Below are positions 2,669 through 14,327 of a stretch of DNA of 35,931 nt, piece after piece. The first letter of the stretch is position 1; the number at the start of each line of letters is the position of its first letter. Under the pieces are notes generated by a model. That model did not search any database, had not been told where the DNA came from, and saw only the letters and a list, made by a program, of their open reading frames with translations. Both the position numbers and the translations under genes were made by a program. Source of the DNA: Sphingopyxis sp. KK2 (GTDB lineage: Bacteria; Pseudomonadota; Alphaproteobacteria; Sphingomonadales; Sphingomonadaceae); NCBI RefSeq assembly GCF_001990265.1, contig NZ_LYVN01000026.1, positions 1-35,931 on the forward strand. The letters are read 5' to 3'.

Positions 2669-5989
<3,321 letters not shown>

Positions 5990-5992
5990 GGT

Positions 5993-6826
5993 TCAGTTTT
6001 TCTTGGCGCCAAATAGTTTGTTGAGGAAGGAAGGCGGCTTGGCTGGTGGTTCGCGACGAGGGCTGTTGTTGCCGGGTGTGGCCGCGAAAGTTTCCCAACC
6101 ATCATACTCGACGCCACTCTCCTGAGCTAAGTCGAGTAATTGAGGGGTAAGCTCGTAAAATGCGGCGATCTGAATTGCCATCAAACGGTTCAAGACCACC
6201 CCACTAGGATCGTTTAGCCAATGATCGACCTCAAAACCCAGTTTTGCGAGCTTCGCAACCAACAGCTGAAGTTTGAGCCGGTCGCCGTAAAACCAAAAAT
6301 CAACCTTTCTAGGTACGTCCGGCTGATCGCCATTCTCTTCCAGAGCGCTGACAACCTGTCGGTCCCCGTCTAGCTGCGTATCCAGTGGTGTGGGGGTGAT
6401 GAACTCACGGTAGGTTGAAAGAGCAAAATCCGAAGTGACTTCGATGCCGACAATGTCCGTATCGATATCGTCGATCAGCTCGGAGATTGGCGCCCCTCGC
6501 CCATGCGCAAAGTACAGAACACGTCGCCCGTCCCCTGTTACGCTGGCCGTGTGAAAGCAACGACCTTGGAGAGAAGAGAGCGACGAAATCAGCAGGTCTT
6601 CAAGGTTTTGCAGGCCTGTCAGGGCAGGAGACGTTGGCATGCCATTGTCTTGGATCTGGTCGGGGTTCAAATCGCAAATCACCGCCGACACAGCATTGGT
6701 CGTCTCAAAGTCGATGATGAAGTCGTTGTTGACTCGCGCACGCACGATCAGCGGGTAACCGTCGGCCGATTCCCGGCTCATGAGCATCCAGCGATCGGTG
6801 TCACCCCCAATGGTCAAGTCGCTCAC
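5993..6826 (-). CDS. DUF695 / RraB-domain protein inserted between carA and carB
   Basis: A 277-residue protein. The N-terminal half (about residues 8-130) resembles DUF695, and the later segment PRKVDFWFYGDRLKLQ... (about 165-245) resembles the RraB domain, whose E. coli namesake binds RNase E and alters its activity. The tail is low complexity, rich in proline and lysine. The start is a GTG (6824-6826) overlapping the upstream stop in a GTGA junction; the open frame extends further upstream only through an arginine-rich antisense-like stretch. Base composition is clearly different: bases 6121-6180 contain 29 G+C in 60, while 5101-5160 within carB contain 43 in 60. This suggests later acquisition. 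Whether it acts on RNase E is inference from the domain; many DUF695/RraB fusions are uncharacterised. Confidence 0.8.
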   Translation of the reverse strand: MSDLTIGGDTDRWMLMSRESADGYPLIVRARVNNDFIIDFETTNAVSAVICDLNPDQIQDNGMPTSPALTGLQNLEDLLISSLSSLQGRCFHTASVTGDGRRVLYFAHGRGAPISELIDDIDTDIVGIEVTSDFALSTYREFITPTPLDTQLDGDRQVVSALEENGDQPDVPRKVDFWFYGDRLKLQLLVAKLAKLGFEVDHWLNDPSGVVLNRLMAIQIAAFYELTPQLLDLAQESGVEYDGWETFAATPGNNSPRREPPAKPPSFLNKLFGAKKN

Positions 6827-9447: not shown

Positions 9448-12279
9448 ATGGCGCTTACCCCGCAATGGCTGGACGAACTGCGCGCGCGCATCACGCTGTC
9501 GACCCTGATCGGTCGCACGGTGAAGGTGACGCGTGCCGGCCGCGAATATAAGGCGTGCTGCCCCTTCCATAACGAAAAGACGCCCAGCTTCACGATCAAC
9601 GACGAAAAGGGCTTTTACCACTGCTTGGCAGCGGACACCTTGGTCATGACCGAAAATGGCCGGTTACCCATCGCGAAGCTCGTCGACAGAACCGTTCGCG
9701 TCCTGTCGCGCGGTGGAGAATGGATTGCCGCTCCTTTTAGATCCTATGGCGAACAGCAGCTTTGGAAAATCGAACTCTCGCGTAACGGCGTTCGCAAAGA
9801 AGTTTACGCCACGTCGGGCCACCGCTGGTTCGTTAACAGCCGGACCCGTTCCTATACGACCGAGGAACTACGCGCCGGATACGCGCTTGAATCGGCCCTT
9901 CCAGAAAAACGGTCTGATTGGACACTCGATCCGGAAGGGGTGCGGCACGGAATAGTTTTCGGCGATGGCACCATGGACAGGGGCGTTTACGGCACCTTGA
10001 ACCTTCATGGCGAGAAGGATGCCCAATTACGCCGCTGGTTTCCCGGCCAGGAACACCATGTTCGCCAGCGCAAGGGTGGCGCGCTTTACCTGCGCATCTA
10101 TGGCGGGCGCGCGTTTTCCCACATGAAAATGCTCCCCGGCGCCGACCGATCGCCGGCCTATCTCCTAGGCTTTCTGGCGGGGTATCTGGCTGCGGATGGA
10201 CATGTGGCGAAAGACGGCACGGTCATCCTCAATTCGTCATCTGCCGGCCATCTAGAGGCCGTCCGCGATATCGCGACGGCGCTCGGCATAACCACCTATG
10301 GTCGCACGACCCTTATGCGCAAAGGCTATGGATCCGCGCCAAGCCCGCTACACCGCATCCATTTCGTTACCTCGACCTTGTCGGACGAGCTGTTCCTGCT
10401 CGATACTGCACGGCAGAGGTTTACGGCCCGCACGAAGAAGTTTGACCGCCTGCGTTGGGTCGTGCGCTCAGTCGAGCCCACCGATCGCATCGAAACGGTA
10501 TATTGCGCCGAGGTGCCACGCCATCATGCCTTCGCGCTCGACGACAATATTCTGACCGGCAATTGCTTCGGCTGCAGCGCGCATGGCGATGCGATCCGCT
10601 GGATGACCGACCAGCGCGGCCTGTCGTTCATGGATGCGGTGAAGGAGCTCGCCGGCGAAGCGGGCATGGAGGTTCCCGCCGCCGACCCGCGCGCCGCGAA
10701 AAAGGCCGAGGAGCAGGCGAGCCTGCGCGACGTGACGCAGGCGGCCGCCGACTGGTTCACCCAGCAACTCGGCAGCAGCAACGGCGCCCCCGCGCGCGCC
10801 TATCTGGAAAAGCGCGGCATCTCCGAAGCGACGCGCAAGGCCTTCGGTTTCGGCCTCGCCCCCGAAAGCCGAAGCGCGCTGAAGGAAGCGCTCAAGAAAT
10901 TCCCGACCGCGATGCTCGTCGAATCGGGCATGCTCATCGCGGTCGACGACAAGGAACCCTACGACCGCTTTCGTGGACGCCTGATGATCCCGATCCGCGA
11001 CGCGCGCGGTCGGGTGATCGCGTTCGGCGGCCGCATCCTCGGCGACGGCGAGCCCAAATATCTGAACTCGCCCGACACCCCGCTCTTCGACAAGGGGCGC
11101 ACGCTCTACAATCTCGACAAGGCGTCGCCCGCCTCGCGCCAGACGAACCGGATCATCGTCGTCGAGGGCTATATGGACGTCATCGCGCTCGCCGAGGCGG
11201 GAATCGCCGACGCGGTTGCGCCGCTCGGCACCGCACTGACCGAGAACCAGCTCGGCATGATCTGGCGCATGGTCTCCGTTCCCGTCCTCTGCTTCGACGG
11301 CGACGCCGCAGGGCAGAAGGCCGCGATGCGCGCCGCGAGCCGCGCGCTACCCCTGCTCCGCCCCGGCTTCAGCCTCGCCTTCGCGACGCTGCCTGCGGGT
11401 CAGGACCCCGACGATCTGGTTCGCGCGCGCGGCGCTGCGGGCTTCGTCGAAGTCCTCGAAGCGGCCGAGCCGCTCGTCGAACGCCTGTGGGCGCATGAGG
11501 TCGCCGCCGGCCCGCTCGCCACGCCCGAGGAGCGCGCCGCGCTCAAGACGCGGCTGCTCGCCCACGCCGATGCGATCGAGGATGCCGACGTCCGCCACCA
11601 TTATCGCGAAGCGTTTCGCGAGCGGCTCGACGGCCTGTTCGCGCGCAAACAGCCCGAGCGCGGGCCGCGCGTTCCCTGGGCGCCGCAGGGCCCGCGCGGC
11701 GCGGGCCGCCGCTTCGCGCCCGACCCGCGGCTGCAACCGCCCGTCGACGAAGCGCGCAGCATTGGCCAGATCGGCATCGGTGGGCATTTTGCCGGCGCGC
11801 TGATCGGCGGACTGCTACGTTATCCCGTCGCGCTCCGCCGTCACGAGGAGGCGCTGTGCCGGCTCGCGGTCGCCGATCCGGGCGACGCCGAACTGCTCGG
11901 CGTAATGCTTGACACGGCAATGCGGCAAGAAGGGCTTGATACTGAGGGCTTGCTTGCCATATTGGAGCCAATGAAAGTGTATAATAGGGCGACGACATTG
12001 CTCAGAGCCGATGGAATGCACTTCTCGTTCAATCGCAGGCTGGACAGCAAGGATGGGGCCGATGCGGCGCGGGAAACCGCGCTTCGCGACCTTGATGAAT
12101 ATATCGGCGTGCTCGTGACGCAGCCCGAAATCCGCGCCCGGCTTGCCGAGGCGACTGCGGATTTCCAGCGCACGATGGACGACGAAGGTCTGGCACGGCA
12201 GCAGAAACTGCGTGCGATGGACGAGGATTTGACCCGCCGCCTGGCCGCGCTGTCCGAAGACAGCCCCAGGTTCGAATGA
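9448..12279 (+). CDS. dnaG: DNA primase DnaG with in-frame intein
   Basis: A 943-residue precursor; removing the 314-residue intein (residues 59-372) leaves a 629-residue primase, a normal length. DnaG lays down RNA primers at the replication fork. The zinc-binding domain has CPFH (Cys38, His41), then after splicing CFGC (Cys373, Cys376), giving the CHC2 ligand set. The core follows: RFRGRLMIPI near 507-516, the TOPRIM EGYMDV with Glu573 and DGD at 617-619. The C-terminal region is divergent, as expected for the helicase-interacting domain, and includes an A+T-richer patch around 11941-12000 (28 G+C in 60). The reading frame is intact through both splice junctions. rpoD follows after 26 bases. 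Primase function depends on splicing, since the intein separates the zinc ligands. Confidence 0.97.
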   Translation: MALTPQWLDELRARITLSTLIGRTVKVTRAGREYKACCPFHNEKTPSFTINDEKGFYHCLAADTLVMTENGRLPIAKLVDRTVRVLSRGGEWIAAPFRSYGEQQLWKIELSRNGVRKEVYATSGHRWFVNSRTRSYTTEELRAGYALESALPEKRSDWTLDPEGVRHGIVFGDGTMDRGVYGTLNLHGEKDAQLRRWFPGQEHHVRQRKGGALYLRIYGGRAFSHMKMLPGADRSPAYLLGFLAGYLAADGHVAKDGTVILNSSSAGHLEAVRDIATALGITTYGRTTLMRKGYGSAPSPLHRIHFVTSTLSDELFLLDTARQRFTARTKKFDRLRWVVRSVEPTDRIETVYCAEVPRHHAFALDDNILTGNCFGCSAHGDAIRWMTDQRGLSFMDAVKELAGEAGMEVPAADPRAAKKAEEQASLRDVTQAAADWFTQQLGSSNGAPARAYLEKRGISEATRKAFGFGLAPESRSALKEALKKFPTAMLVESGMLIAVDDKEPYDRFRGRLMIPIRDARGRVIAFGGRILGDGEPKYLNSPDTPLFDKGRTLYNLDKASPASRQTNRIIVVEGYMDVIALAEAGIADAVAPLGTALTENQLGMIWRMVSVPVLCFDGDAAGQKAAMRAASRALPLLRPGFSLAFATLPAGQDPDDLVRARGAAGFVEVLEAAEPLVERLWAHEVAAGPLATPEERAALKTRLLAHADAIEDADVRHHYREAFRERLDGLFARKQPERGPRVPWAPQGPRGAGRRFAPDPRLQPPVDEARSIGQIGIGGHFAGALIGGLLRYPVALRRHEEALCRLAVADPGDAELLGVMLDTAMRQEGLDTEGLLAILEPMKVYNRATTLLRADGMHFSFNRRLDSKDGADAARETALRDLDEYIGVLVTQPEIRARLAEATADFQRTMDDEGLARQQKLRAMDEDLTRRLAALSEDSPRFE
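9622..10563 (+). mobile_element. LAGLIDADG homing-endonuclease intein in DnaG
   Basis: The element is 314 codons. It begins with Cys59 (block A, CLAADT), has the block B TxxH motif (Thr122-Ser-Gly-His125), a block F-like VYCAEVPRHHAFAL near 351-364 and ends ILTGN at Asn372, followed by Cys373 as the +1 nucleophile. The residue before the terminal Asn is Gly rather than the canonical His. Two LAGLIDADG-type motifs lie between: HGIVFGDGT (Asp173) and LLGFLAGYLAADG (239-251, Asp250), so the homing endonuclease looks intact. Bases 9721-9780 contain 29 G+C in 60, against 40 in 60 at 11041-11100 in the primase core, supporting separate origin. The boundaries follow from restoring the GFYHCFGCSAHGD primase motif. 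Confidence 0.95.
11954..11985 (+). promoter_or_regulatory. Possible internal promoter for rpoD inside dnaG
   Basis: A perfect TATAAT at 11980-11985 lies within the A+T-richer 3' part of dnaG, about 320 bases before rpoD, with TTGCCA 20 bases upstream, a longer spacing than ideal. CTTG at 11935-11938 and CATATT at 11958-11963 also loosely resemble an alphaproteobacterial heat-shock promoter. E. coli has a heat-shock rpoD promoter inside dnaG, which makes the location suggestive, but chance within coding sequence is a real alternative. Confidence 0.22.

Positions 12280-12305: not shown

Positions 12306-14323
<2,018 letters not shown>

Positions 14324-14327
<4 letters not shown>

Follow-up and report, generated by a model that had tools for sequence, protein, structure and literature searches.

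An intein in the CHC2 zinc domain of a Sphingopyxis DNA primase combines residues of class 1 and class 3 inteins and is predicted to be mobile

An intein interrupts dnaG at the codon of a zinc ligand

A stretch of 35,931 nucleotides from Sphingopyxis sp. KK2 (the window; 35.9 kb, contig 26 of a 4.34 Mb draft genome with a completeness of 99.98%) was analysed with respect to its dnaG gene, which encodes the DNA primase. The gene is interrupted by a 314-residue insert that we identify from its sequence as an in-frame intein. In all likelihood the insert is mobile and belongs to a large intein family associated with phages; it would have entered the chromosomal gene at the third-ligand codon of the zinc domain and would splice itself out of the protein. 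Judging from the alignments, what is new here is the combination of Cys1 and Cys+1 with the Trp-Cys-Thr (WCT) triplet of class 3 inteins in one intein family.

An initial annotation had described an intein of 314 residues at 9622-10563 with a TxxH block B, two LAGLIDADG motifs and a terminal Asn, and sequence, profiles and alignments bear this out (Table 1). The TxxH motif was found in the insert, blocks A, B, F and G and the Cys+1 are all present, and the extein resumes after Asn372 as Cys373-Phe-Gly-Cys376. The LAGLIDADG profile PF14528 scores above its cut-off in the insert, and the intein_Nterm profile TIGR01445 reaches 21.2 bits on the insert alone, just under its cut-off of 24.5. By base composition, the chance of a stop-free frame of 314 codons is about 4e-5. 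When the whole precursor was compared with Pfam, the match to the CHC2 zinc finger PF01807 was broken in two, and further matches were to DNAG_N, Toprim and LAGLIDADG_3; the NCBIfam profile dnaG TIGR01391 also matches in two stretches. The empty site is seen in related genomes: in all 51 tabulated genomes of the genus without the intein, both pieces of DnaG join within 15 bases of the insertion point.

Homologs of the intein align over its full length, end to end, and in an alignment of eight rows, which includes all six members from the genus, Cys1, block B Thr and His, the Trp, Cys F:4, Thr G:5 and the Asn are invariant. The HINT fold was recognised, with 1dq3 as the best overall fold match; a PDB sequence search with the intein alone gave no match. 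The alignment of blocks F and G to a solved intein is weak and pairs Cys353 with the Asp that a DnaE intein has in block F (2.6 bits). A domesticated mini-intein was considered and rejected, the endonuclease part being complete.

Table 1. Coordinates of dnaG, its intein and the adjoining gene in the window
Feature	Position	Strand	Basis
N-extein, 58 aa, first half of CHC2 zinc domain	9448..9621	+	Pfam; comparison with intein-less genomes
Zinc ligand 1, Cys38	9559..9561	+	Position from sequence; ligand role from CHC2 family PF01807
Zinc ligand 2, His41	9568..9570	+	Position from sequence; ligand role from CHC2 family
Intein, 314 aa (precursor residues 59-372), HINT splicing domain with inserted LAGLIDADG homing endonuclease	9622..10563	+	
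Intein Cys1 = precursor Cys59, class 1 nucleophile position	9622..9624	+	Cys in 51/51 rows
Block B His (B:10), precursor His125	9820..9822	+	51/51 rows
Trp B:12, W of WCT triplet = intein W69	9826..9828	+	51/51 rows; 79/79 in scan with Trp-free pattern
LAGLIDADG-type motif 1 GIVFGDG, Asp173	9949..9969	+	Asp in 50/51 rows
LAGLIDADG-type motif 2 FLAGYLAADG, Asp250	10171..10200	+	Asp in 49/51 rows
Block F Cys (F:4), C of WCT = precursor Cys353 = intein C295	10504..10506	+	51/51; 79/79
Block G Thr (G:5), T of WCT = precursor Thr370 = intein T312	10555..10557	+	48/51; 75/79
Intein terminal Asn372; penultimate Gly371	10561..10563	+	Asn in 48/51 rows, Gln in 3
C-extein: remaining CHC2 domain, catalytic core, Toprim	10564..12279	+	Pfam, NCBIfam
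Cys373: +1 splicing nucleophile position and zinc ligand 3	10564..10566	+	Alignment; ligand role from CHC2 family
Zinc ligand 4, Cys376	10573..10575	+	Position from sequence; ligand role from CHC2 family
dnaG, DNA primase precursor with intein, 943 aa	9448..12279	+	Open reading frame; Pfam and NCBIfam profiles
rpoD, neighbour of dnaG	12306..14327	+	NCBIfam

The four proposed zinc ligands Cys38, His41, Cys373 and Cys376 stand where they had been placed, and Cys373 is at once the +1 residue and, going by the CHC2 family, the third ligand. The intein itself contains only two Cys residues, Cys59 and Cys353, and in the unspliced chain Cys59 occupies the position of the third ligand; the penultimate intein residue is Gly, not His. 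By its layout a complete CHC2 domain would need splicing, as had been claimed, but the conclusion that unspliced primase cannot build a zinc site goes too far: the precursor could still bind zinc, since Cys38, His41 and the intein Cys59 are kept and Cys373 and Cys376 lie beyond the intein. A structural model of precursor residues 1-420 has a mean predicted local distance difference test (pLDDT) score of 57.6, with residues 1-59 and 356-384 below 50, and therefore no distances within the zinc site are claimed.

The intein unites class 1 junctions with a class 3 triplet

A family alignment of 51 inteins, five from dnaG and 46 from viral contigs, was used to define the conserved residues. Cys1, the Thr and His of block B, Trp B:12 and Cys F:4 are kept in all rows; Thr G:5 is present in 48, the terminal Asn in 48 (Gln in three), the penultimate Gly in 42 and Cys+1 in 50. 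The Trp is not a search artefact: 29 of the 51 rows fail the Trp-containing search pattern, and all 29 keep the residue. In a later scan, the pattern consisted of the endonuclease motif only; it gave 79 loci, listed from the best 80 of 105 confirmed and overlapping with the earlier set of 61. Trp and Cys F:4 are present in all 79, Thr G:5 in 75 and Cys1 in 76. The three without Cys1 are the phage inteins L181, L190 and L209, which have Pro1 with the WCT triplet intact and form one branch (support 100/99) beside the Cys1-bearing L118 and L119 (99/92). From this nesting, in a tree rooted at its midpoint, we infer that Cys1 was lost in the Pro1 branch. The longest branch of the family tree belongs to L067/L136, which have Ser+1 and lack the endonuclease Asp residues in the alignment; their endonuclease is perhaps decaying.

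The WCT triplet is defined by block positions B:12, F:4 and G:5 (PMC3196547), and all three are occupied accordingly in the dnaG intein. In class 3 inteins the N-terminal nucleophile is absent or not needed (PMC3196547, PMC7891396, PMC5222942), and here the dnaG intein departs from the class, as Cys1 is present. By its residues it is thus a hybrid, class 1 at both junctions (Cys1 and Cys+1) and class 3 inside. Cys F:4 alone does not settle the mechanism, because class 1 inteins with this residue are known, which are polyphyletic (PMC3196547). The near-invariance of Cys1 argues that this residue does something, and the Pro1 branch argues for its being dispensable in the family; the predicted initiator of splicing is either Cys59 or Cys353.

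The dnaG allele is rare and patchily distributed

With the intein as query, it was detected in 6/80 genomes of the genus at 78-100% identity (5/70 among those of good quality); the carriers of the same genus include G031, G010, G048 and G033. The precursor as query matched 57 of 60 genus genomes: five have the full insert, 51 have pieces meeting at the site and one shows a weak partial match. In a sample of the bacterial family, two of 298 genomes matched, the window's own and G212, which has a 56% identical intein at the same place in dnaG. When CHC2 was searched in 385 genomes of the class, 370 gave a match, and two more split domains came to light (G456 and G596), each with the intein between the same residues. 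A second class of the phylum was covered with 185 genomes, of which 173 matched; no split CHC2 domain was seen among the matches listed. In both class surveys, split domains were chosen by a weak best E-value per genome among the matches listed: seven weak genomes were searched again in the first survey, of which two are split, and the single weak genome of the second, G1218, has a single match. Such surveys could miss a dnaG with an intein in genomes that have another, uninterrupted CHC2 domain.

A profile of the intein family was also run on 398 genomes of the phylum, scoring up to five candidates per genome. Nine genomes gave matches at E <= 1e-5, strong only in the window's own genome; the other eight are partial matches with E-values from 4.9e-8 to 7.3e-6. 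A long open frame around dnaG in G774 was checked as another candidate and is not a dnaG intein.

The counts in genus (6/80), bacterial family (2/298) and class, together with the lack of a split domain among the matches listed for the other class, show that the dnaG allele is rare and patchy. The statement in the initial annotation that DnaG inteins are rare on bacterial chromosomes agrees with this. The allele is not widespread, and DnaG has already been listed as a eubacterial intein host in one row of Table 1 of a 2018 review (PMC5874633), a row that gives no site, organism or sequence. That DnaG can host an intein was therefore known before. Beyond that row, no description of a DnaG or CHC2 intein insertion site was found in searches of an open-licence library, in which most candidate papers were represented by their listing.

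The same insertion allele occurs in a plasmid and in phages

A plasmid search yielded one record, plasmid pSR-4 of Skermanella rosea, with a 50% identical intein. It sits in the CHC2 domain of a MobF relaxase, between the His and the third-ligand Cys. In this relaxase (L044:1449-6911), the CHC2 zinc domain is placed after the helicase part. Two IMG/VR contigs carry the intein in primases matching PF01807 (L059 = L076, 57% identity; L077, 50%). A search of annotated phages returned four records with 25-34% identity, and a viral scan with the window's intein as the sole query confirmed no relative.

In a tree of 59 rows, midpoint-rooted like all trees here, the inteins at the CHC2 site (dnaG, plasmid and the two phage primases) form one clade (96/98), in which L077 is the partner of the plasmid intein (100/99). 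The clade also takes in L078, which comes from a phage primase (phrog_47); the twin of L078, L079, has no PF01807 match in its zinc domain. L076 groups with G456 and G596 in the 59-row tree, not in the larger tree. The simplest reading of these trees is that the intein has spread between phage, plasmid and chromosome, and one allele found in all three would make the routes of spread traceable.

The endonuclease part is maintained by selection

The six intein-bearing dnaG genes stand in at least four places among intein-less genes in an extein tree of 31 rows (the C-extein of G062 is ended by the locus boundary, at 500 residues). Ratios of nonsynonymous to synonymous substitution rates (dN/dS) were determined for 15 pairs. 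They lie between 0.04 and 0.12 in 14/15 pairs for the endonuclease part and between 0.06 and 0.16 in 15/15 pairs for the splicing part. By this measure, purifying selection acts on the homing endonuclease part with about the same strength as on the splicing part. The element is probably self-spreading and looks foremost like a genetic parasite on the move.

Several results weigh against such a history. The grouping of the window's gene with that of G031 in the extein tree is supported at 0.79 only, and some deeper forks are lower. In the very close pair G010/G033 the dN/dS of the endonuclease is 0.64, on a synonymous divergence (dS) of 0.05. The dS of the intein exceeds that of the extein in 15/15 pairs, by 1.1-3.5 times, which on one reading fits separate acquisition and would equally fit weaker codon bias in the intein and saturation. 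No co-conversion signal was found next to the insertion site. Solved inteins are distant by sequence, with a best E-value of 0.0029 in another comparison. Finally, L139 (a primase; PF01807 at 16.2 bits, cut-off 24.9) and L109 are primase inteins at CxxC sites that lie outside the CHC2 clade, so that primase zinc sites were entered by more than one intein lineage.

Insertion sites across the intein family

The +1 Cys opens a CxxC motif in 17/50 precursors, compared with 36/417 other extein Cys residues. Left out of this count were L100, L104, L110, L134 and L135, with ends off the junction, and 11 duplicates that are 98.8-100% identical to a kept row. In the later scan, 12/79 have a CxxC at +1, with the +4 residue unaligned in 11. 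The hosts at CxxC sites comprise CHC2 and other primases, proteins of the PAPS-reductase family (phrog_424: L066 = L130, L080, L081, L097) and phage proteins with the zinc-ribbon-like pattern CPxCG...C, to which no zinc family is assigned. L097 stands apart from the other phrog_424 inteins (L080, L081, L130), and L144, at a CPFCGS site, groups with L082 and L092 (100/98), not with the CPxCG inteins L086, L088, L094 and L125. Such CxxC sites therefore seem to have been entered more than once.

These numbers suggest a preference of the family for zinc-like CxxC sites; they are only suggestive because the rows share ancestry and the search started from CHC2. A rule that the family always targets zinc ligands was rejected, since 33/50 precursors have no CxxC at +1.

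Genomic setting

rpoD adjoins dnaG, carA, carB and recG lie on the opposite strand and mfd follows; the setting is therefore chromosomal. A CHC2 search found no second CHC2/DnaG gene elsewhere in the draft genome. An open frame of 1103 codons (2705-6016, + strand) lies opposite carB (2669-5989, - strand) and has no Pfam match; it is probably a shadow frame in GC-rich DNA.

A proposed pathway and its alternatives

Splicing, homing and the order of attack are inferred from the sequence. A mobile intein would enter dnaG where the third zinc ligand is encoded, the conserved DNA there being its presumed homing target. After translation the HINT domain would fold and the intein excise itself. The first attack would come from Cys59, in the class 1 way, or from Cys353, in the class 3 way, followed by Cys373 and by cyclisation of Asn372; a hybrid chemistry is probable. 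Cys373 would take over the N-extein and become the third ligand of the complete CHC2 domain. The site may suit a parasite because it offers Cys+1, its DNA is conserved and imprecise loss would break a single-copy primase.

How far this arrangement matters to the cell can be read in several ways. Somewhat favoured is a purely selfish element. Its splicing would be fast and complete, and it would sit at a zinc ligand only because it needs a conserved Cys, without influence on the timing. The 33/50 family precursors with the intein at a Cys that opens no CxxC speak for it, and the over-representation of CxxC at +1 (17/50 against 36/417) speaks, if only suggestively, on the other side.

A regulatory variant, in which zinc or oxidation would hold Cys59, Cys353 or Cys373 and pause splicing, so that active primase would form only at the right zinc and redox state, appears unlikely as a whole; the regulatory reading is hypothetical. 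Gating of DnaG splicing is plausible by analogy: class 3 chemistry is sensitive to zinc in Mycobacterium smegmatis DnaBi1, where 10 uM zinc, bound to the initiating Cys118, blocks splicing nearly fully and EDTA reverses the block (PMC7360933), and peroxide blocks DnaBi1 through a C48-C118 disulfide (PMC8529194). In DnaG the position of the +1 nucleophile doubles as a zinc ligand, Cys59 occupies the third-ligand position of the precursor and a single DnaG was found in the genome. If an intein at a metal ligand did couple the two, metal supply would be linked to replication via an essential enzyme. Against regulation stand the patchy distribution, with no intein match in 74/80 genus genomes (65/70 of good quality), and the purifying selection on the endonuclease, which an element that spreads would be predicted to show. 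A plasmid relaxase and phage primases also carry this allele at the very same ligand, which argues in the same direction. The intein also has no extra Cys like Cys48 of DnaBi1; both of its Cys residues are nucleophile candidates, though they could pair together.

A decayed intein, with splicing lost and DnaG working unspliced or replaced by another primase, is hardly credible: the missing penultimate His would fit decay, but Gly is the family rule at this position (42/51), the splicing residues are invariant in the eight-row alignment, the dN/dS of the splicing part is low and the search for CHC2 in the genome found dnaG alone.

Comparison with known inteins

The DnaG inteins listed in the 2018 review share the host protein with the present allele and may be identical to it (PMC5874633). 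Two views exist of how class 3 arose. One holds that a phage intein lost its N-terminal nucleophile (told in PMC3196547); the other derives class 3 from a cysteine protease, the changes needed being improbable together (PMC7664689). A family with Cys1 and WCT and with one branch without Cys1 could be a missing step in this origin. Taken further, the family would be a living bridge between classes 1 and 3, the dnaG member would start from Cys353, and zinc on Cys38, His41, Cys59 and Cys373 would delay primase maturation as a side effect of the parasite's site; we regard this combined proposal as speculative and rather improbable.

With class 3 inteins such as mycobacterial DnaB-1, the dnaG intein shares the WCT triplet; it differs in keeping Cys1, which is excluded by definition in a class 3 survey of 1701 inteins (PMC7891396), and in having Cys+1, a position held by Ser or Thr in class 3 inteins, for which a single exception, Bvi IcmO, was known in 2016 (PMC5222942). 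With the class 1 LAGLIDADG inteins PI-PfuI and PI-SceI it has the full-length endonuclease in common, in line with 1dq3 as its best fold match. PI-PfuI and PI-SceI also have Cys1, Cys+1 and a terminal Asn, as does the dnaG intein. It differs from class 1 in Cys F:4, as the residue at this position is Asp in many inteins of that class (PMC7891396). Trp B:12, Thr G:5 and the penultimate Gly set it apart from class 1 as well. Tori and Perler reportedly described in 2011 inteins with Ser1 and WCT, namely Catera Gp206, Nocardioides JS614 TOPRIM and T. fusca Tfu2914. With these the dnaG intein shares an N-terminal nucleophile alongside the WCT triplet, and it differs from them in its Cys1, its Cys+1 and the large family to which it belongs.

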